From Owenia fusiformis (taxonomy: Eukaryota > Annelida > Polychaeta > Sabellida > Oweniidae): DNA of 64,000 nucleotides. Positions within the stretch are counted from its first letter, which is position 1. Each line of letters begins with the position of its first letter. Shown here in pieces: positions 19,701 to 55,800 of this stretch. The notes beneath the pieces are model-generated. The model did no database searches, was not told where the DNA came from, and worked only from the letters and a program-made list of their open reading frames with translations. The position numbers and the translations under genes are program-made. The stretch is from NCBI GenBank assembly GCA_903813345.2, contig CAIIXF020000011.1:12755754-12819753 (forward strand), written 5' to 3'.

Positions 19701-20096
19701 CCTGATTTCAGTGATAAATAACAACAATTATACATGTAGCATGGTACACTTTGGGTAGACGTTATCATTCCTGGGTGCCCAAACATCTCAGGAAAACAAG
19801 GTACTCAAATTATATTGATCGTACATCATGGTGCAAATCACAATTTTACTGAGTGTCTTCAAAAAATAATAATAAGGTCATCTTAACATGCAAAATGTCA
19901 TAACCTGCGATTTGTTAGAGATGCTGGCCAAATATTAAGTTCACATTTGACATATAAAAATGAAAAAATCAAGAAAAGAAAAAATCTGACCAAACTTTTC
20001 TTCTGGAAGTTTGGCCATGCTGAAACAATGGCATCCTGTCTTCATTTCCATCTTGTATCCCCAATTGAAAAAATACTCTAATTTTGGTGGTGACAT
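16765..20096. mobile_element. ~3.3 kb element with ATGTCACCACC-type inverted ends, interrupted by a nested segment
   Basis: The left end (ATGTCA at 16765, then GGTGACATATTGTTATGG and GGTCTCC) and the right end (TTTTGGTGGTGACAT to 20096) match, in opposite orientation, the ends of 52711-54672. The block from about 18637 (ACAACTTCCAATAACTTACA) matches 54510-54560. In the second element this block lies next to the end, so about 1.8 kb (roughly 16866-18636) appears inserted here. No transposase recognised. Confidence 0.6.
17277..17371. repeat. Hairpin inside the nested segment
   Basis: AGCCCACACTCCCACAAAAA pairs with TTTTTGTGGGAGTGTGGGCT across a ~50-nt loop. The stem is strong and nearly perfect. 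Confidence 0.75.
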
Positions 20097-20187
20097 AAAA
20101 AACAAACACAACACAGCTGACAATTCAAATCTAATTTAACACAACCCATTGTTGAATAAACACAACACAATAATAATTTTCCAAAAC

Positions 20188-20236
20188 ACTCCTCTCCCTA
20201 AATGGCTAATTGAATTAGCCATTTAGGGAGAGGAGT
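20188..20236. repeat. Perfect 24-bp inverted repeat with a single-base loop
   Basis: Arms 20188-20211 and 20213-20236 are exact reverse complements around G20212. The core is AATGGCTAATTGAATTAGCC. Confidence 0.95.
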
Positions 20237-20739
20237 TTATTGAAAAAGTCTATTCTAATAATGATTATTACAAAATTCAGATCTCTCTAAAACCATGAGG
20301 TGCGATGATATAATTTTAGGAATTTGCTGGAGCATGACATTTTAATATTTACTAAGAAATACATTAGCCTACATGTAGCAATATCTAAGTACAATTTACT
20401 TTTTAACTTGAAATCTACTCCAATTTTTACAAATTTATACAATGGCTATTACATTCACAATTTTGCAGGAACTATTGGAAGCCAGTTGTGATCCAAGTGG
20501 AAGTCATTAAAAACAGGGCAGACATCCTTTACTCCGAAAGATCATTTTTCCATTATAACTGTTTATACTTTCATCCAGATATGTACCATCTTTGAGAATT
20601 TGAGTCATAGATCCCGGCCAGATCATTTTGCAGTATGAGCTCATAGGCTCAGAGAATAATTACTTTCTGATGACACCACATAGTTACAGGACATAGTAAG
20701 TTCAGAATTTGCAGACAGACTGATTCTTTATTGTTTAAT

Positions 20740-21068
20740 ATTTGTTATAAATATGGTGATTCTTTATTATTTGTTAATAAATGTGGTGATTCTAGGATTA
20801 TTTGTAATAAATATGGTGTAGGATTATGTGTTATAAATATGGTGATTCTAGGATTATTTGTTATAAATATGGTTATTTGTTCTAAAAAGGTGATTCTAGA
20901 ATAATGTGTTATAAATATGGTGATTCTAGGATTATTTGTTATAAATATGGTTATTTGTTATAAATGGTGATTCTAGGATTATTTGTTATAAATATGGTGA
21001 TTCTGGGATTGTTTGTTATAAATATGGTGATTCTAGGATTATTTGTTATAAATATGGTGATTCTAGGA
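20740..21068. repeat. 30-bp minisatellite
   Basis: About ten copies of a unit containing ATAAATATGGTGATTCTAGG and ATTATTTGTT, with some shortened units. It lies about 0.7 kb upstream of gene A. Confidence 0.9.
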
Positions 21069-21797
21069 TACAGTATAGGGTGCAAGCACAAACAAAATGT
21101 TTATTGAAATCATGATATATATACATGTGAAACTGATAATTACCATGAGACAGGTGGAACTTGCCAACTAGTTTTTCAGAGACAATTAATTTTCATTTGA
21201 TTTTAATTACATGGCAATTATGTAAACTGGGGTAATGAATTTGATTATTTGAAATCCAACCCTAGAAATATATCCCTCTTAAAAAAATTGATTTTCTTTC
21301 TGACTTATGGAATATAATTCATTTCTCTACAAAAGTTAAACCAGTTAAAAAATAAATATATAAAAAATAAATCAAACATTTGGAAACTAAACTTTTAAAA
21401 TACATATAAAGCCATTAAAATTAAGTTTGATATTTATCTGTTTTGCACCTGTTATTAATGATTGTTCACCTGTAGAATTGCAATTAAAGGTAAGATAATT
21501 ATATATAATCACCTGAGTGGGGAATCAACTACCTGACATGCCCTGGACCCACACTCCTGAATTATGTCATTAGAATCTCTTTTATAAACTGAAAAAAACT
21601 ATTTATCTCAATTTGAGTTTGGATCTGCTTCTTGTTTAAGACATTAAAATGCAAGTCTGAGTAAAAATAGGCCAGGAAATTGATGAAATAAATATGACTA
21701 AGAATAAACATTTCACAGTTTAAGAATAAACAAACTTAAAATGTAGCTTCAACCAGGATAATACTGTTGTCTCGTTGTCTTGGATACATAAAGAACA
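21069..21797 (+). promoter_or_regulatory. Upstream region of gene A
   Basis: AT-rich. It should hold the promoter or 5' UTR. A TATAAA-like word (TTTTATAAACT near 21580) is present, but no diagnostic promoter structure can be defined. Confidence 0.25.
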
Positions 21798-21885
21798 ATG
21801 CTGAAGGAAAGGAAAATTGTGAATAAGATACTATTATGGCTGTTTTTGATTCTTATAAATTCAGTGATGTCAGAGGCTGCATATG
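21798..21885 (+). CDS. Gene A exon 1: start codon and signal peptide
   Basis: ATG to a GTAAGT donor at 21886, ending in phase 1 (one G left over). It encodes 29 residues: a Lys/Arg-containing start and a hydrophobic core, with likely cleavage after the SEA or AAY region. Any 5' UTR or upstream non-coding exon cannot be placed. Confidence 0.82.
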
Positions 21886-24800
21886 GTAAGTATATAATGA
21901 TGATAAAATTCCATTTCAATGTGATATATTTTTATACGGATTGTTCTTTAAAGTAAAATGTACATGGTTTTAATTATCCGTAGAACAAAATTTACAATAA
22001 ATCAATTTTATATTTTTATTACATGTTCAATCCTTTTTAGTTGTGATGTTTCCCCTTGACATATTACTAGGAAAGTTATTTTCATCAAGAATTGAAATTC
22101 AATCACCCCTTCATAATGAAGTTGTTTTTAATAATGTTATCATTAAATGAGCTTTTGTCATTTGTTTGAAAAATATTTACATAATAAATTGAAATATTGC
22201 AAAACTAAATCAATTTCTTTATATAATTAACTCCAATACAAATACTGTATATAACTTGTCATTATTTAAGCATCCTGACACTGTGGATAACATTATTCCC
22301 ACTGTAATGATATACCATATTAAATTAAATATCAAAATATTATCTTCATAATGTTATCATTATTATTGTCATTAGGAAAATCAAAATTAAGAAAATGAAA
22401 AAATTTGACCATTTGACAAATTAAACACTTTGATTAAATACCACTTATACAGTATATTTATGCATGATATACTAGTAATATATATTTTAGCACTCACATT
22501 CAAGTCATCCATGTGCTACAACTCCAAAGGGAATGCCTTTATCAGACTCCTCTGTCCTGACACATACAAAATCAAAACCATCACTGCATTCACTGGCATC
22601 AGTCGTAACAATGTGTGTGCCTACAGTTCATGGGACTGTATCATACAGGTAAGCTATTATACAATGTTTCCCCCTACAGTTCATGGGACTATATCATACA
22701 GGTAAGCTATCATACAATGTGTGCGCCTGCAGTTCATGTGACTGTATCATACAGATAAGCTATCATACAATGTGTGCACCTACAGTTCATGTGACTGTAT
22801 CATACAGGTAAGCTATCATACAATGTGTGCGCCTGCAGTTCATGTGACTGTATCATACAGATAAGCTATCATACAATGTGTGCGCCTGCAGTTCATGTGA
22901 CTGTATCATACAGGTAAGCTATTATACAATGTGTGCACCTACAGTTCATGGGACTGTATCATACAGGTAAGCTATTATACAATGTGTGCACCTACAGTTC
23001 ATGGGACTGTATCATACAGGTAAGCTATTATACAATGTGAGCACCTACAGTTCATGTGACTGTATCATACAGGTAATTTTTATACAATGTTTTGCCTACA
23101 GATCATGGGACTGTATCATACAGGTAAGTTATTATACAATATATGTGCCTACAGTTCATGGAACTGTATCATACAGGTAAGCTATTATACAATGTGTGCA
23201 CCTACAGTTCATGGGACTGTATCATACAGATTAGTCATTATACAATGTGTGCGCCTACAGTTCATGGGACTGTATCATACAGGTAAGTTATTATACAATA
23301 TATGTGCCTACAGTTCATGGAACTGTATCATACAGGTAAGCTATTATACAATGTGTGCACCTACAGTTCATGGGACTGTATCACGCAGGGTAGCTATTAT
23401 ACAATGTGTAAAAGCAATCATGGGACTGTATCATACAGGTAAGCTATTATACAATGTGTGCGCCTACAGATCAAAACCCAATTACATGTACTCAATCAGA
23501 ATTTAAAGCCTAAGAAATTGATGCCTTCATAAAAGATTTATTCATTTCAGTTTAACAGCTACTTTTTGAGTTCTTTTTTAGAAGGAAATGTCTATTACTT
23601 TCTTGTTTCTTGAACTTGGGTAAAAAAGTACATGTAAGTGATTGTTAAATAAAAATATTAACAACTGTGATTGCTTTTACATCATAGGAAGGATCTACTG
23701 ATAAATGTGATGACAGACAACAATGTACAGTAAGCGTTTCCCACAATGATGGAAAGGTGGCTCTGACCTGTGGTGCCCAACAAGGCGAAATGAAATACTT
23801 CCAGGTTGAATACATATGTCAATCTGGTGAGTTAGATTTAAGATTTCACCTAGCTTATAGTTTTGCCTTAATTTAAACTAAATTCATACTTTTTGGCCAC
23901 AACCCCTGTTCAGACAAACTAACATTATCTAACACAGGTAGAAAAATATTAAATCACATAAGGTAAATGTAAATATTTGTGCAATGCTTACAAATGTAAC
24001 AATTTTCATTTTAAAAGCAAATACACACTGTACCTTTTGATAGATGTCTCTGTTGTTGAAATATCTATATAAAATTCTTAATATGTTTTGCAGATAATAA
24101 AGCAAAGAACCTGACAGTGAATGATTATTCAACAGTAGGTCCTGCAGTGGAAGACCTTCCTACTCTTCCAAATATACCAAGTAACCCAGAGTTCACATAC
24201 AAGAACCCAAGAGGTAATATATTTATCATATACCACATGTTCAATAAGTACTAAAAAATAATTAAAAGACAAGTCTCGGTTTGAAGAACGGAGTTCATCC
24301 GTCTACTGCACATTATGCCTCTTTTGGACAATATTTGATATTTTTACATATTGTAGATTTAAATGTTCTCTTTTGAAAGTTCATGATTTAATTTGGGCGA
24401 TATTTCTATATTTTTCATAAAAAAATTATTAGCGCAGTACACTGCACTGATGAACTTCTTTCTCCAAAGCGAGACTTGTCTTTTATTGAATCGGTCTACT
24501 GTACGTTACGCCTACTTCGGACCTTTTTGATATTTTTACATCTTGTAGATTTGAATGTCCTCTTTTGAATATTTATAACTTAATTTGGGTGATATTTCTA
24601 TATTTTTCATGAAAAATTATTAGCCCAGGAGACTGTTCTCCAAACAGAGACTATTTTTGTCCTTTGATCAAAAGCAAGCCACAATATTTGAAAGACAACG
24701 TGAAGCATCCCTCATATATAATATAGATAGCCCTCATGTACAATATGTATTTTAATATTTTAGGGCCAACTGTGCCAGCTGAAGCTACAGAAGAAGACAA

Positions 24801-25970
24801 TGCGGTGATGAGTAAGAAATTTCATTTCTATTGTATTTGACTAGCTGTCTCCAAAATATGAAGAATACAATTAAATAGATGGTATCATCAATTTTCAACT
24901 GGTCCATTTTAAAGACTTGAAGAGTTTGCAAAATTAATTCATTCATTTTAACTGCTAAATCATGAATCACAAATTCAACTTTTAACAATTCAGCTGAATC
25001 AAATTAATAGAAAATGTGAAAATTGTAAAATAGTACATGTGTGTATGTTTAACCAGAGCTTTTTAGCATGGTTGATGGAGCTGCTTGATTAAATGACTAA
25101 AGTTTGAAATTATTTGAACAAAAGAAACAAAAAATCTTACTTGTTTATATATAAGTGGAACCAGCCCATTTCACAACTTTTTATCAACCATCACGGCATC
25201 TGAAAATACATGTACATGTATATTAAGTTATCATTAATTAATCAGTGCTAAACAAACATGTATGATATTTTTGTGATGTTTAGCTTAGAATGCTTTTAAA
25301 AAGCTACCCCGAGTGAAGGTCTCTTTAGGAAGTAAAGTTGAACGAATGCAAAGGGTAACATATCAGCAATAATGATTATTATTTTGTATATTTTCAGTTG
25401 CAATAATATGTGGTTCTCTGGTTGGAGTGGTTGTTGTCTGTGCTGTCATGGCAACACTTATACATAGGATAAAGAACAGGTGAGGTGAATATCAGTTTTA
25501 TTTATTATAGTACCATGATATTAAATAATTTCATCATTGGTATGATCAGAAGTATGTTAATATACAAGTAAAATAACTTTTCCCTGATTACAATGTCTAT
25601 CAGATTTTAAAATTATTCAATATTGACATTTTTTAAATGATTTTAAAACACGAATATGACAACCATTGACCCATTTTCCTAGACATTTTTATTGAGGTAC
25701 CACTGTTACAAATAGTTGTAATTCTAAAATATCATTAAAAAAAGAAAAAAACCGATGATTAACTGCTATTTCAGGACTTACACAAATGCACTATATGCTA
25801 CAAGGTCACTTATCAACCCAACCTTGACCCAAAGTTCACCTGACTACCCCAGCAGACGTCCAATGCCAAGGTCACCAAGCCAAAGGTCACCAGGGTCAAG
25901 GTCACCTAGATCACACAGGACAACAAGGAGTTTTGAGAGTGGCTCATATGTTGATACAGAGGCAGTGTGA
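21798..25970 (+). CDS. Gene A: single-pass membrane protein with one SUEL-type (galactose-binding) lectin domain, 7 coding exons
   Basis: Coding exons are 21798-21885, 22491-22648, 23688-23826, 24094-24213, 24764-24811, 25398-25479 and 25775-25970. They sum to 831 nt (276 aa plus TGA), with GT...AG at every intron and all phases closing. Residues 1-28 are a signal peptide (basic start, then LLWLFLILI). Residues ~38-126 form a SUEL-type lectin domain with Cys at 38, 51, 72, 79, 89, 95, 110 and 126 and the family-typical ending KYFQVEYIC. Residues ~129-184 are an acidic/Pro stalk. Residues ~185-206 are a membrane helix, followed by basic HRIKNR. The tail of about 65 residues is rich in Ser, Arg and Pro. 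An in-frame TAA at 21789-21791 supports the chosen ATG. SUEL domains bind rhamnose/galactose or act in adhesion; that role here is inferred. The ligand is unknown and no orthologue name is assigned. Confidence 0.87.
22491..22648 (+). CDS. Gene A exon 2: first half of the SUEL lectin domain
   Basis: The acceptor TATTTTAG ends at 22490 and a GTAAGC donor starts at 22649. The exon enters in phase 1 and leaves in phase 0. It supplies Cys 38, 51, 72 and 79. Its last 22 nt (22627-22648) plus the donor are multiplied in the 53-bp array that follows. The first donor is preferred because it joins exon 3 in frame and completes the domain. Confidence 0.85.
22621..23470 (+). repeat. 53-bp array derived from the end of gene A exon 2 and its splice donor
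   Basis: About 16 copies with 53-nt periodicity. Each contains a CTACAG or CTGCAG (acceptor-like), a 22-nt stretch matching 22627-22648 of the coding exon, and a GTAAGC/GTAAGT donor. The first copy includes the true exon end; the rest lie in the intron. Copies vary at a few positions (CAGATAAGC, CAGATTAGT and GCAGGGTAGC disrupt the donor). Confidence 0.93.
23688..23826 (+). CDS. Gene A exon 3: second half of the SUEL lectin domain
   Basis: The acceptor TCATAG ends at 23687 and a GTGAGT donor starts at 23827. Phase 0 in, phase 1 out. It carries Cys 89, 95, 110 and 126 and the GEMKYFQVEYIC ending typical of the family. Confidence 0.87.
24094..24213 (+). CDS. Gene A exon 4: extracellular stalk
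   Basis: The acceptor TTTTGCAG ends at 24093 and a GTAATA donor starts at 24214. Phase 1 in and out. It encodes 40 residues rich in Pro, Asn and Thr with no recognisable domain. Confidence 0.75.
24264..24484. mobile_element. MITE in gene A intron 4 (~220 bp), with a partial second copy to ~24661
   Basis: AAAAGACAAGTCTCGGTTTG faces CAAAGCGAGACTTGTCTTTT. The following 24485-24661 repeats the interior and right end in diverged form, giving a tandem arrangement. Confidence 0.65.
24764..24811 (+). CDS. Gene A exon 5: short acidic juxtamembrane exon
   Basis: A 48-nt exon between an acceptor ending at 24763 and a GTAAGA donor at 24812. It is symmetrical (phase 1/1), so it could be skipped without a frame change. 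It encodes an acidic stretch (EATEEDN) before the membrane helix. Confidence 0.68.
25304..25360. mobile_element. Fragment of the ACCCTTTGCATTCG-type MITE family
   Basis: GAACGAATGCAAAGGGTAAC and the preceding 35 nt match the right end of 50892-51267. Only this end is present, in gene A intron 5. Confidence 0.6.
25398..25479 (+). CDS. Gene A exon 6: transmembrane helix
   Basis: The acceptor TTTTCAG ends at 25397 and a GTGAGG donor starts at 25480. Phase 1 in, phase 2 out (splitting an Arg codon). It encodes about 22 hydrophobic residues followed by HRIKN, a positive-inside stop-transfer. It is the structural counterpart of 62375-62450 in gene B. Confidence 0.85.
25775..25970 (+). CDS. Gene A exon 7: Ser/Arg/Pro-rich cytoplasmic tail and stop
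   Basis: The acceptor ATTTCAG ends at 25774; the stop TGA is at 25968-25970. It encodes 64 residues, with repeated RSP/SPR-type tripeptides. The DNA repeats AAGGTCACC-like words around 25875-25910. RPMPRSP fits the class I SH3-ligand pattern RxxPxxP. The C-terminus TEAV could suit a class III PDZ pocket. Both interactions are speculative. Confidence 0.83.
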
Positions 25971-26159
25971 TACATTTTTATAATGTTTGATGGTTTCTAA
26001 AACTGTTCAGCTGAGATTGGGGACACTATGCATGAGGATATCTAAGAATCCAGTGAAAATACTCATTAAATGTAGAATATGTACAAAGAAAGAAGTTGAA
26101 AGTGTATAGTAGATTTCATATTTAGATGCATAATTGTATGACATAAAACATAATACAAA

Positions 26160-28225
26160 ATAGTCTATGTAACTTGGCCGAAACAGACAGTGGAATATTT
26201 CTACGGATACTAAATCGAGTTATCCTAATATTACAGGGCCAAACAAACAGTGAAGTTTTCATAAAATAGTAAAGCATGTAATCCAAAATAACAGGGCCAA
26301 ACAAACAGTGAAGTTTTCATTAGATAGTAGAGCATGTAATCCAAAACAACAGGGCCAAACAAACAGTGAAGTTTTCATTAGATAGTAGAGCATGTAATCC
26401 AAAACAACAGGGCCAAACAAACAGTGAAGTTTCCATTAAATACTAAAGCATGTAATCCAAAATAACAGGGCCAAACAAACAGTGAAGTTTTCATTAGATA
26501 GTAGAGCATGTAATCCAAAACAACAGGGCCAAACACACAGTGAAGTTTCCATTAAATACTAAAGCATGTAATCCAAAATAACAGGGCCAAACAAACAGTG
26601 AAGTTTTCATTAGATAGTAGAGCATGTAATCCAAAATAACAGGGCCAAACAAACAGTGAAGTTTTCATTAGATAGTAGAGCATGTAATCCAAAACAACAG
26701 GGCCAAACAAACAGTGAAGTTTCCATTAAATACTAAAGCATGTAATCCAAAATAACAGGGCCAAACAAACAGTGAAGTTTTCATAAAATAGTAAAGCATG
26801 TAATCCAAAATAACAGGGCCAAACAAACAGTGAAGTTTCCATTAAATACTAAAGCATGTAATCCAAAATAACAGGGCCAAACAAACAGTGAAGTTTCCAT
26901 TAAATACTAAAGCATGTAATCCAAAATAACAGGGCCAAACAAACAGTGAAGTTTCCATTAAATAGTAAAGCATGTAATCCAAAATAACAGGGCCAAACAC
27001 AAAGTGAAGTTTTCATTAGATAGTAGAGCATGTAATCCAAAATAACAGGGCCAAACACACAGTGAAGTTTTCATTAAATAGTAAAGCATGTAATCCAAAA
27101 TAACAGGGCCAAATAAACAGTGAGGTTTTCATTAGATAGTAGAGCATGTAATCCAAAACAACAGGGCCAAACAAACAGTGAAGTTTCCATTAAATACTAA
27201 AGTATGTAATCCAAAATAACAGGGCCAAACAAACAGTGAAGTTTTCATAAAATAGTAAAGCATGTAATCCAAAATAACAGGGCCAAATAAACAGTGAAGT
27301 TTTCATTAGATAGTAGAGCATGTAATCCAAAACAACAGGGCCAAACAAACAGTGAAGTTTCCATTAAATACTAAAGTATGTAATCCAAAATAACAGGGCC
27401 AAACAAACAGTGAAGTTTTCATTAAATAGTAAAGCATGTAATCCAAAATAACAGGGCCAAATAAACAGTGAAGTTTTCATTAGATAGTAGAGCATGTAAT
27501 CCAAAATAACAGGGCCAAACACACAGTGAAGTTTTCATAAAATAGTAAAGCATGTAATCCAAAATAACAGGGCCAAATAAACAGTGAAGTTTTCATTAGA
27601 TAGTAGAGCATGTAATCCAAAACAACAGGGCCAAACAAACAAACAGTGAAGTTTCCATTAAATACTAAAGTATGTAATCCAAAATAACAGGGCCAAACAG
27701 TGAAGTTTTCATAAAATAGTAAAGCATGTAATCCAAAATAACAGGGCCGAACAAACAGTGAAGTTTCCATTAAATACTAAAGCATGTAATCCAAAATAAC
27801 AGGGCCAAACAAACAGTGAAGTTTTCATTAGATAGTAGAGCATGTAATCCAAAACAACAGGGCCAAACACACAGTGAAGTTTTCATTAGATAGTAGAGCA
27901 TGTAATCCAAAATAACAGGGCCAAACAAACAGTGAAGTTTTCACTAGATAGTAGAGCATGTAATCCAAAATAACAGGGCCAAACAAACAGTGAAGTTTTC
28001 ATAAAATAGTGAAGCATGTAATCCAAGATAACAGGGCCAAACATACAGTGAAGTTTTCATTAGATAGTAGAGCATGTAATCCAAAATAACAGGGCTAAAC
28101 ACACATTGAAATTTTTATTAATGTAATCCCAATATAACAGGACCAAACAGTACACACAGTAGAATTTAACTTTATATGGTAGAACATGTAATCAAAAAAT
28201 AACAGGGCCAAACAAACAGTGGCAT
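26160..28225. repeat. 58-bp minisatellite, ~35 copies, beginning about 190 nt after the gene A stop codon
   Basis: The unit contains AACAGGGCCAAACAAACAGTG and CATGTAATCCAAAA. Three main variants (ATTAGATAGTAGAG, CCATTAAATACTAAAG, CATAAAATAGTAAAG) alternate in blocks, suggesting higher-order duplication. It probably lies in the 3' UTR or just downstream. Minus-strand ORFs inside it are repeat artefacts. Confidence 0.92.
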
Positions 28226-49800: not shown

Positions 49801-52800
49801 ACTAGGGAGTTACTCTAAATCATATAGGTTCTCCAAAGCAAATGGTTACTATAAATCAAATGGTTACCCTGAACTGGGCAGAGTACTACATAAATGCCCA
49901 TTTTGATATTTTATCAGTCTATCTATAAATCAATTGTTTTATATTAGGTTAGTCACATGTTTCTTCTCAAATAATATTACCTATAATTGCATATTATTGA
50001 TTGTCTATTTTTCTTATACCTACATAGCGGAAATCAATTGATTCCTGACAAATATTTGTGTAATCACACACCTTACTATAGATTAAGGAGGCTTAATAGG
50101 TACCCAAAATGGGGAAAATAAAGGGATGGATAAGTGATATCTTGTCTGGATAAATTCAATTTTTGTTGAAAAATGTATGTTTGTGGTTGTGCTAATAAAA
50201 TAAATGGATCTAAACATAGTGTTGCATACAGAATGAAGAGTGCTTAATGTGAGCTCATTTTGACAAAAACACTGTTTTCTTGGTTGTACAAGGGACTGTA
50301 AGGAGTAATTATGGATACTCCCATCAGGAACCCTTAAGTGTGTATAACTGGAAATATCACAGGATAAGTGGATCACAAGGTCTACTTGAATCTGATCTGA
50401 TCCTTAACAATTTACATAATACATTGATTTAAACAGCTAGCTTGATACAAGAATCTATGGGTCTAATGGCTATGGGTTTATGGCCATGGGTCTATGGGTC
50501 TATCCATACCTGTATACACGGTATACCAGTGTATTCATTCAGTCATTGAAATACTTTGATACATCAACATGATCTGGGGTCTAATAATTTCACATTTCCT
50601 ATGATTTTGAGGTTTAATAGATTATACCTCATCTAAATCATGAAAATTATGTTAATGTATTTCTTAATTCACACTTTACACATTTGTACTTTATAAGTTA
50701 TCAAAACAATATTATCATTGCCCTCCATGAATTCCATAATAACCCCCTCCCGCAATGCCAAATTCATTTAAATGATTTAAATTTAAATCAAAATCTAACA
50801 AAAACATAATTGAAAACATAAGGTACATGTATTTTCTCTCACATCTAGAAATGTTCAATACCTCACCTGCTGTTTTCATTTCCCACCAAAAGTTACCCTG
50901 CGTGCAGAGTCTAGTTAAACTACACTCTGCCTAGTAGAGACCATATTACAGTTTAGTAGCCCCGCCCCCACGACGGGTACCGGTGACAGTTTGGGTAAAT
51001 CGCTTTTGACCTACGCGCTGACCTTCCACCAATCAGCGAGCTTGAAGGAACATACGCCAAAAGCGTTCTAATTAAATATGCGCATGTCATTGGTCAATTC
51101 CCGGCTCAACGATGACATCAGAAGGAATGTATCATATAAAGAACGTCGGTCAAATTTGGCCGACGAACACTGATTGGCGCGGTGAGATCACAGGTTTATT
51201 TTAGTTTGAAAGAGTGAAGACGGAGCTCTCTTTTAAGAAGTGAAGTCAAACGAATGCAAAGGGTAACCAAAAGTCTAAAATAATTATCTAAATTATCACA
51301 ATTAAAGTTAAATATTGATCTTATTTTCCACCTGGTATTAAATGTATTTTATTCTTTTAAATCTTGACTTCTGGATCCCTTTGATCTTCTGAATCAGCTA
51401 CCAGCTTGTTTATTCTTTGGATCTTTTGCCAGGTGATTTGATCCCTCATCATAACAAACCACTTTTCGATCATCAAATTATGAATGCCTGGATCCCTAAT
51501 TAAACATGACTTAAGATTTTTATTTGATTAAATTCCCTTTGATCTTTTCATGAATATTTGATCCTGTGATCCCTATTGAGTTTGATCACCTGCCTTTTCT
51601 TTGATCTTCTCAAGATTGTAATTAATCATTCAGGATCTATGCTGATCATTAAAGGATCCAATTACAAGAGGGTTCATATGGGATCACTTGGATCCTTTGA
51701 TCATCATTTAAATCAATACATTTAATTGTATTTCTAACATTTAGAAGGAGGAGTGTATCAAAATCCAAGATGGAGGCCTGAATTTTTAATTGTTACCATA
51801 GCGCAGGTGTTTTTCAAGCTGTTTATTTAATAAGAAACCTATGAAGAGTTCAATCATACAAACGTGAATTCAATGAATCCATATATACCTCAACTGAAAC
51901 CCAAATTTTATTTTGCTTCATTAAAAATTTCATACTGTATGAAGAAATGTGACAAAAATATTCTTAACATTTGTTATCCTTTTAAAATTGATAACATTAA
52001 AATCATTAGTTTGTTGTTTTTATTTCAAATTGCATGTAATAAAGTTGACTCCTGAAAATCTTAAAATCTTAATTAATCAGAAGGCATGTGAGGAGGTATA
52101 GGAATCAATATTCTCTACATCTTTAAGATAACAAATAGAGATTTCATATAGTGACCATTTGGAGTTATATTGGATATACTGGCTCTGGGGATTATTCAAG
52201 ACAAGTTCTAATCATTCAAGTTGGCAATTGATATTTCCAAATGTTGCTGCAGTGAAACTAAATTGTTTGAAAATTAACATTTAATCTTTCAAATCAATAA
52301 AATAGATCATTGTTATTAAATTATACATTATTTGAAATTTTATATTTTTGCTATAATCCCAAATGCCCCAGTCCCTAATCCTGAATCAACATAAAACCAA
52401 AGGCCTTTTAAACACTTGAAGGGAGATCATGTTACAATACAATTCTTGGCGCGTGCCAGAATAATGTAGCACGTGTTATAAACAAACAGAGGTACACTTA
52501 AGAAATATAAAACTTTTGTTACTTTTCTTTAAGAATCAACATTTAATGGTTTACCCTTATGAAAAATTCAAATCTTAATATTTTAATATTTGTTTATACT
52601 TGAACTACATTCAAAAGAAAAATGAAGTAAAGGGGAATAAAAATAAATTTGTAAGATCAAATTTTTATGACAAATCACGACAAAAGATAACAAGGCATTA
52701 ACATGACAAAATGTCACCACCTAGTTGCTCACAATATTATGAGTTCAAACTTAAGTCAGATTTGAATTTCTGAGAACTTGTAAAGTCAAATTTGAACTTC

Positions 52801-55800
52801 TGAAAAGATGAAGATGATTTTGAAAAAAAAATTTGGTCAATTTGAAGCAAGTTGAAAACAGACCTTTTTGACCTTTTTTGACCTTGAGAAGGTCATTAAA
52901 GGTCAAATGTCAAATCTAAAGTCAGATTTGAATTTCTGAGAACATGTAGATGATTTTGAAAAAAAAAATTAGTCAATTTGAAGCAAGTTGAAAAAAGACC
53001 TTTTTGACCTTTTTTGACCTTGACAAGGTCATTGAAGGTCAAATGTCAAATCTAAAGTCATATTTGAATTTCTGAGAACATGGAGATGATTTTGAAAAAA
53101 AATTTAGTCAATTTGAAGCAAGATGAAAAAATACCTTTTTGACCTTTTTTGACATTGAGAAGGTCATTGAAGGTCAAATGTCAAATCTAAAGTCAGATTT
53201 GAATTTCTGAGAACATGTAGATGATTTTGAAAAAAAAAATTAGTCAATTTGAAGCAAGTTGAAAAAAGACCTTTTTGACCTTTTTTGACCTTGACAAGGT
53301 CATTGAAGGTCAAATGTCAAATCTAAAGACATTATTGAATTTCTGAGAACATGTAGATGATTTTGAAAAAAAATTTAGTCAATTTGAAGCAAGATGAAAA
53401 AATACCTTTTTGACCTTTTTTGACATTGAGAAGGTCATTGAAGGTCAAATGTCAAATCTAAAGTCAGATTTGAATTTCTGAGAACATGTAGATGATTTTG
53501 AAAAAAAAAATTTAGTCAATTTGAAGCAAGTTGAAAAAATACCTTTTTGACCTTTTTTGACTTTGAGAAGGTCATTGAAGGTCAAATGTCAAATCTTAAG
53601 TCAAATCTAAAGTCAGATTTGAATTTCTGAGAACACGTAGATGATTTTGAAAATTTTTTTTAGTCAATTTGAAGCAAGTTGAAAACAGACCTTTTTGACC
53701 TTTTTTGACCTTGAGAAGGTCATTGAAGGTCAAATGTCAAATCTAAAGTCAGATTTGAATTTCTGAGAACATGTAGATGATTTTGAAAAAAAAATTTAGT
53801 CAATTTGAAGCAAGTTGAAAAAAGACTTTTTTGACCTTTTTTGACTTTGAGAAGGTCATTGAAGGTCAAATGTCAAATCTAAAGTCAGATTTGAATTTCT
53901 GAGAACATGTAGATGATTTTGAAATTTTTTTTAGTCAATTTGAAGCAAGTTGAAAACAGACCTTTTTGACCTTTTTTGACCTTGAGAAGGTCATTGAAGG
54001 TCAAATGTCAAATCTTAAGTCAGATTTGAATTTCTGAGAACACGTAGATGATTTTGAAAAAAAAATTTAGTCAATTTGAAGCAAGTTGAAAACAGACATT
54101 TTTGACCTTTTTTGACCTTGAGAAGGTCATTGAAGGTCAAATGTCAAATCTTAAGTCAAATCTTAACTCAGATTTGAATTTCTGAGAACACTTAGATGAT
54201 TTTGAAAAAAAAAAATTTAGTCAATTTGAAGCAAGTTGAAAACAGACCTTTTTGACCTTTTTTGACCTTGACAAGGTCATTGAAGGTCAAATGTCAAATC
54301 TAAAGTCAGATTTGAAGGTCAAATGTCAAATCTTAAGTCAGATTTGAATTTCTGAGAACATGTAGATGATTTTGAAAAAAAATTTAGTCAATGTGAAGCA
54401 AGTTGAAAAAAGACCTTTTTGACCTTGAGAAGGTCATTGAAGGTCAAATGTCAAATCTAAAGTCAGATTTGAACTTCTGAGAACATGTAGATGATTTAGA
54501 AAAAAACTGAAGTCAGTCTAAACAGTATTTGTTAAGTTATAGGAAGTTGTAAGAAATTGTTACAGACGCCGGACGCCAACCGCCGGACGCCGGACGCCAA
54601 CCACCAACCGCCGGACACCGTCGCAAAAAAACGGAGACCATAACAATATGTCACCACTTTTGGTGGTGACATAAAAATCTTAACTTGAGATAGAGAAAAA
54701 CAAAATCATAATTTTCACAATGGTATTGACAAGTAGCATGAGACCAGAGAAACATATGGTCGATTCAGAATAAGCTTGTCATGAACATAGATCTGTAAAG
54801 TTGCACCCTCAAGGTATGCCATATCATAAGGGACATGTATAGGTGTCTGACTGTGTTCCAGCTGCCCCCTGATTTTGAAGGGTATGAGTTGATCTTTTGT
54901 GAATCAAATGGGTTTCTTTAATACCTTCATGGAAAATTAGTCTAATTATCATTCAGTCTTATTCCCAAATACAGCAAAACCGGTCTAGGGGGAACACCTT
55001 TGGAACCTCTAAAAAGTGTTCAGTTAAGTTAGTTGATCTCCAATGTAAATGATTTTTATTCGACCAATGAAAATGCTCTTTTCAATAGTTTCATTTCACT
55101 TCTTAAGGAGTGATACATTTAATAGGCCATGAACGACTTGAAAGAGGTACAACATTAGATGTAACCACAGAAACATATCCAAATAAAAATCTGGAATATT
55201 CCCTGATCATGTAAACCAGAAGTTCGCAAAGTACCCAAATATACAGGTGTAAATAACACTGTTCCTTCCTCAGAATGTAACTGAAACTATGTTGTACCTG
55301 GAGAAGAGTATTTTCTGTTTACTTCTCTTAAAGTAGATCTTGAAACAATTCCATCCATTCATATGAAAGACTTTGTTTATGTTATGCATTTCCTACAAGC
55401 CATGTTTACAATTCAGGGTACTTAGGTACCTCTGGGTCATGTTTTAAAGGTATATTAAAGGTATTCTGAACAAATACAATGTAACTTGTACTATTTTACA
55501 AATATAAGGAAATCTGGCAAAAACTGTGAAGATCTACATTCAAACTACAAAAATTGTGTTTGTGTTTTTGTAAGCAATGTTATACACAATGTTATACAAT
55601 GAGGCAAAAGATATAGTGAGAAATGTATAACTGAACGCAATCAGCAATTACTATTTGCATCATTTAAAGTATTCACTCATTTGCAATTGATCCGGACCCA
55701 AAATAGATGAAATGAATAGAATGCTAGTATCAAGCAGCCCTGTATAAATACTAAGAGGTTCAAATTGCACAAAATTCTGATCAAAATTCCACTAACTTAC

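Follow-up and report, generated by a model that had tools for sequence, protein, structure and literature searches.

Tandem duplications that cross exon-intron boundaries, known as mirages, have been described in amphioxus in Adh3, in globin genes, in TnC and, in imperfect form, in PGBD5; in passages of the two reports, the units of the Adh3 mirages measure 10-72 bp (PMC3087553, PMC3902484). According to the same passages, regular splicing is undisturbed by the amphioxus mirages, their length is unstable, and they have been proposed as a source of introns (PMC3087553, PMC3902484). Another system is the VNTR in intron 18 of human ABCA7, which has a 25-bp unit and begins at the donor of exon 18. 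Passages of the report give retention of one unit in 2 ± 1% of transcripts, independent of array length, and more skipping of exon 19 in longer arrays (PMC5954066). A related case is that of the human internal tandem repeats found at exon edges (PMC2812944), and the introns of earthworms contain minisatellites, for which passages of the report give no position at splice sites (PMC12783039). In a literature search that left subscription papers mostly outside, no report of exon-edge arrays in annelids was recognised.

The window analysed here, a stretch of 64,000 nucleotides from the annelid Owenia fusiformis, contains a gene on the forward strand with seven predicted exons and predicted introns of 267-1039 nt; the exons give one open frame of 276 residues with a single stop. 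The coding part of exon 1 (21798-21885) carries the start codon and a signal-peptide-like N terminus and ends in phase 1; its frame and GTAAGT donor were assigned by inspection. Exon 2 (22491-22648) ends in phase 0 at CAG/GTAAGC and is separated by intron 2 (22649-23687; 1039 nt), which contains the array, from exon 3 (23688-23826), the second half of a SUEL-like domain. A phase-0 end at 22648 and a next exon from 23688 had already been proposed in the earlier note on this DNA, and the predicted model agrees. Exon 4 (24094-24213) would supply a linker or stalk, exon 5 (24764-24811) a linker, exon 6 (25398-25479) a transmembrane-like segment whose hydrophobicity was judged by inspection, and exon 7 (25775-25970) a cytoplasmic-tail-like end and the stop codon. 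Read by inspection, the predicted product would be a single-pass membrane protein with a signal peptide, a SUEL-like domain, a linker, a transmembrane segment and a tail. The gene model rests on frame, splice signals and domain.

The domain was earlier called a SUEL domain. The predicted domain covers nearly the whole profile of Pfam SUEL_Lectin (PF02140; 2-80 of 80, E 4.6e-4), the sole family that matches it at E 10. The score of 20.9 bits falls short of the cut-off of 31.4. A Pfam search with a longer piece of 169 residues at E 0.001 gave no match, and neither did a PDB search for the lectin domain at E 0.01. The PF02140 family search of the genome returned 18 places, and the host gene was absent from them. 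The closest relatives of the domain in the genome are weak, with 29% and 34% identity; the latter (C11:12554448-12554714, E 0.003) itself passes PF02140 at 41.3 bits. The domain is named SUEL-like because its Pfam score is below the cut-off, it is absent from the places of the family search, and its genome relatives are weak.

The 16-copy array of 53-nt units reported earlier was recovered by TRF at 22608-23473, with a period of 53 nt, 16.4 copies and 88% matches. Read in register, it holds 16 full units (22608-23450) and a partial 17th unit of about 20 nt (23451-23473) at its 3' end, all on the forward strand; units follow one another at 53 nt, except that the step to unit 10 is 51 nt and the step to unit 16 is 50 nt. 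The unit is composed of the final 41 nt of coding exon 2 and the initial 12 nt of intron 2. The repeated exon piece (22608-22648 in unit 1) is therefore 41 nt long and not 22 nt as first supposed, and the CTACAG that had been taken for an acceptor is protein-coding in unit 1 (..V C A Y S S W D C I I Q, up to the junction). Unit 1 (22608-22660; GTAAGCTATTAT) is the end of exon 2 itself and carries the presumed authentic donor, and the remaining 15 copies (units 2-16, 22661-23450) are inside intron 2. A donor had been ascribed to every unit, which holds for most of them: CAG/GTAAG followed by C or T is present in units 1, 2, 4, 6-8, 10, 11, 13, 14 and 16. Unit 9 reads GTAATT, and GT is missing from units 3, 5 and 12, where the donor place reads AT, and from unit 15, which has GGTAGC. 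GTAAG is thus retained in 11 of 16 units, or 10 of the 15 intronic ones, and GT in 11 of those 15. At the acceptor-like place, AG is retained in 14 of the 15 copies from 2 to 16. Three pairs of units are identical (u3 = u5, u7 = u8, u11 = u14); otherwise, many substitutions and a number of indels set the copies apart.

A 16-fold tandem array is more than chance. When the 498-Mb assembly was searched with two of the units, all eight matches fell within the array; this search scores the best candidates only and may miss others. Between 22491 and 23687, inverted repeats of at least 10 nt and at most 200 nt apart were limited to one 14-nt pair outside the array, and Rfam at gathering cut-offs gave no match over 20000-27000. 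The window also holds a second array, with a 58-nt unit and 32.6 copies (26233-28121), just 3' of the last coding exon of the gene, and a higher-order tandem array of 136/271 nt at 52781-54316.

Compared with the amphioxus mirages, including those of BflGb6 and BflGb9, as passages of the reports describe them (PMC3087553, PMC3902484), the present array shows three of their features: a minisatellite unit that spans an exon-intron boundary, a splice signal kept in many but not all units (here GT in 12 of 16), and a homogenised interior with a diverged edge unit (here u16 at the 3' edge, the most diverged, with 64-78% identity to the others). The 53-nt unit also falls within the range given for Adh3. 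The differences are the host, an annelid here and amphioxus there, and the sixteen copies of the present array, which is known here from the sequence of one assembly. Amphioxus is unlikely as the source of this DNA: GC is 0.32-0.37 in ten arbitrary 8-kb pieces of the genome, amphioxus being richer, and three matches to the annelid erythrocruorin linker domain, all above its cut-off and one containing a stop, lie within 15 kb. A search for mollusc haemocyanin gave no match, and neither did its control. With the ABCA7 VNTR, as it appears in passages of that report, the locus shares an array that begins at the exon's own splice donor (PMC5954066). The human unit, however, starts at GT, so that the ABCA7 array repeats without a coding exon tail, whereas the present unit repeats a tail of 41 nt; moreover, length polymorphism and an effect on splicing have been shown for ABCA7, while the present array is known from sequence (PMC5954066). 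In the Rogers model, where introns arise from tandem duplication of segments that contain splice sites, and in the potato RdRp intron gain, a duplicated segment likewise crosses an intron-exon boundary together with its splice signals (PMC4974935); the present array differs in lying inside one existing intron, with no new intron seen.

The spread of differences over copies 2-16 was compared with the consensus. Mismatches occupy 7 of 75 cells in GTAAG and 57 of 786 in the whole unit; as the two drift at about the same rate, the later donors show no visible sign of being preserved or eliminated. Divergence is lower in the 22-nt core, where 12 of 330 cells are mismatched, than in the rest of the unit (45 of 456). 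Selection on this core was considered and set aside: over all 16 units, 6 of its 22 sites vary and 18 of the 31 others (Fisher p 0.049, rank 2 of 53 among windows of the unit), which is suggestive, and the signal weakens for units 2-15 (p 0.16, rank 10 of 53), with p 0.11 and rank 4 for the 11 units left after removal of edge and indel units. These p-values are not strict, because the copies are related by descent and not independent.

Other arrays of this kind were sought by screening the genome for three spaced donor words, with reversed words as the control; many matches fall within one array. The word CAGGTAAG gave 341 forward and 70 reverse matches (control 62 and 2), CAGGTAAGT 105 and 36 (55 and 1), CAGGTGAG 241 and 173 (16 and 30) and AAGGTAAG 235 and 233 (81 and 46), and the controls indicate that an array with some given word is no rarity. 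Besides the present one, 29 separate arrays or clusters could be told apart in the matches listed for the four words, and all of them are counted here; this is no whole-genome count. Among the matches listed, 10 of the 29 have a database-supported exon end at their 5' edge (L005, L009, L014, L016, L019, L022, L026, L028, L032, L033). Eight have an open exon-like end without good support (L007, L010, L013, L015, L020, L024, L025, L029), the best of the weak Pfam values being E 0.0087 (L007), 0.043 (L015) and 0.055 (L029); one (L012) overlaps an open frame by no more than its final 5 nt, and for ten no exon edge was seen (L006, L008, L011, L017, L018, L021, L023, L027, L030, L031). At L006:1877-2419, a 21-nt CAGGTAAG array lies about 44 nt past an exon-like end and is open in frame for 181 codons.

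Eight of the supported exon ends are over the Pfam cut-off (NIF, Peptidase_M24, B56, Rieske_4, WD40, tRNA_bind, SNF and Il2rg). The Kringle exon end is below it when the exon is taken alone, and the INTS9 exon pair, at 19.6 bits, is also below it and has a PDB sequence match to INTS9 at 1e-26. When the first donor was joined to the next exon, the same domain continued in all nine supported arrays tested, L028 (WD40) being outside this set; the score rose from 41.3 to 99.9 bits for B56, from 52.9 to 127.3 for SNF and from 23.4 to 71.1 for Kringle. The joins were picked to match the domain, four pairs from among several in-frame acceptors, and hence they indicate that skipping of the array is compatible with a conserved protein and do not in themselves show its use in the cell. 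In the aminopeptidase P-like gene, the long donor ladder of L009 starts at 2035 and has a base unit of 29-30 nt within higher-order repeats of 60/119 nt. In an SLC6-like gene, the first exon after the donor ladder has a second long tandem array (L047:1725-2850) downstream of it.

Arrays at the other exon edge were screened with the spaced word TTTGCAGG, which matched 73 and 86 times, against 3 and 37 for the control. Among the matches listed, 19 acceptor arrays were found and every 3' edge was read; 10 are exon-start-like. Pfam searches with these 10 edges returned EGF (3.1e-4), 2OG oxygenase (0.0017) and Myosin_head (0.0087), all below cut-off, and no match for the other seven. In PDB searches with four of the exon-start-like edges, FCHO2 (8.1e-12) and myosin-Ib (1.7e-7) were matched and two edges gave no match; the edge of L065 may be exon-like too. 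Some exon support therefore exists for 4 of the 19 acceptor arrays among the matches listed, two of them good (FCHO2-like and myosin I-like) and two weak. Given these supported arrays, both exon edges seem to be affected in this genome, a likeness to the amphioxus mirages as reported in passages of the first study (PMC3087553). One acceptor ladder (C2:31100650-31100915) lies about 8 kb from a donor ladder on the opposite strand (C2:31108229-31109875), the latter in an AIMP1-like gene.

The use of the additional copies was followed in the predicted reading frame. Extension of exon 2 to any of donor places 2-16, 11 of which have GT, truncates the protein in 15 of 15 cases, at codon 115 with donor 2 and at codon 101 with the other later donors. 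The inclusion of 22-nt pieces truncates it in all 15 single and all 105 double cases, none of the 105 two-copy combinations being open. Three copies were said to add 22 codons; this works in 190 of 455 combinations, which are open, and fails in the 265 that are truncated. From each donor to the acceptor-like site of the following copy there are 31 nt, and no intron of the gene model is shorter than 267 nt; it is therefore unlikely that both of two neighbouring copies are used. The pyrimidine share is at most 0.53 before 14 of the 16 acceptor-like sites, compared with 1 of 6 real acceptors, the values for the acceptor-like sites lying at the low end of the real range and overlapping it.

The array is probably a neutral minisatellite of the mirage type that is spliced mainly from its first donor, with perhaps a rare use of donor 2 beside it. 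A 53-bp segment across the exon 2/intron 2 junction would have been tandemly duplicated and then multiplied, through unequal exchange or slippage during replication, until there were 16 copies. The first of them would stay the real exon end and donor, while the others drift neutrally in the intron. Splicing would then mainly join 22648 to 23688 and give the open protein of 276 residues; if donor 2 were used now and then, 53 nt would stay in the mRNA and the protein would end early, at the codon given above. A minisatellite that captured an exon edge was among the options of the earlier note and is now the best supported of them, with ten arrays at unrelated exon ends, donors that drift and later donors that truncate. 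Points against this reading are the less diverged 22-nt core, the exon-heavy units discussed below, the 10 of 29 ladders without an exon edge and, from passages on ABCA7, the fact that array length there alters the skipping of the next exon (PMC5954066).

It is considerably less likely that the array acts as a splice-site decoy or dosage element, in which the extra donors compete with the first and the copy number sets the level of intact mRNA, with the remaining transcripts truncated through one retained unit or a skipped exon 3. Such a role would draw on the 10 later copies that keep CAG/GTAAG with C or T and so equal the real donor by sequence, and on the human ABCA7 VNTR, for which passages describe both the retention of one unit and a length-dependent skipping of exon 19 (PMC5954066); yet the same passages give a one-unit retention that is unchanged with array length (PMC5954066), and the donors of the present array show no sign of being kept. 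In the nine tested genes, the conserved domain continues only if everything from the first donor to the end of the array is omitted, and therefore the ladders should not dominate splicing there. Computed RNA accessibility is 0.0027 for the first donor and 0.0006-0.043 for the copies, so that the first donor is undistinguished among them; the idea that RNA structure sequesters donors was rejected on these values. By analogy, a low-level decoy action is possible.

The neutral mirage-type reading leaves the question of how often such arrays should fall on a junction by chance. Ten arbitrary 8-kb pieces (80 kb) contain, by TRF, 6 arrays with a period of 20-70 and at least 3 copies, several of them loose, and the window contains 5, the present array included; extrapolation gives roughly 37,000 arrays genome-wide, with a wide error. 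If about 200,000 donors are assumed, some 3% of them CAGGTAAG, and a unit length near 45 nt, capture at random would yield about 20 CAGGTAAG arrays at exon edges, a number that does not yet demand three intact words. The CAGGTAAG matches listed cover about 109 Mb and include 7 arrays; four of these (L005, L007, L009, L010) sit at an exon end or an exon-like one, which scales up to about 18; the rate of arrays thus fits random capture within error. What random capture leaves unexplained is that the units are exon-heavy: over the present array and the ten supported ones (n = 11), the mean exon share is 0.69, whereas random placement gives 0.48 (simulated P 0.001). TRF edges may be off by several bases, however, the 30-nt unit taken as the base of L009 was a choice, and n is small. 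Together with the 10 of 29 ladders on supported exon ends and the acceptor-side arrays, this share argues for mirage arrays as a genome-wide class formed preferentially on junctions by the copying of mainly exon ends and not by random capture, a proposal that we regard as doubtful. Such preferential copying would perhaps be coupled to transcription or splicing. If the proposal were true, donor ladders of variable length in many conserved genes would tune splicing and give rise to new introns.

It is highly improbable that the array is an assembly artefact, a repeat collapsed or over-expanded: tandem repeats are prone to misassembly, and passages of one report mention an amphioxus array that had been assembled aberrantly (PMC3087553), but the copies are told apart by many substitutions and several indels, and comparable arrays were found at unrelated exons. 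Least likely, and likewise highly improbable, is the micro-exon ladder, in which inclusion of the 22-nt copies would yield variable lectin domains as suggested earlier; the AG kept in nearly all later units, the 22-nt core as the least diverged part of the unit and the open three-copy combinations speak for it, but it has little support, given that single and double inclusions always truncate, that most products are truncated, that the acceptor-like site is coding exon in unit 1 and pyrimidine-poor upstream, and that neighbouring copies would require 31-nt introns.

The array is, then, ordinary in kind and well developed in degree, of a sort that recurs in this annelid genome and is most likely neutral. 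Mirages, which have been reported from lancelets, would thereby be extended to an annelid and to both exon edges, and they could serve as raw material for the gain of introns. Every array amounts to a natural experiment in which many copies of one donor stand within one intron, in conserved genes where the conserved protein results if the array is skipped from its first copy on. How splicing chooses among equally good donors is an old question that such arrays make testable by cDNA alone, and the useful part of the finding is the set of conserved genes in which the choice among near-identical donors can be measured.
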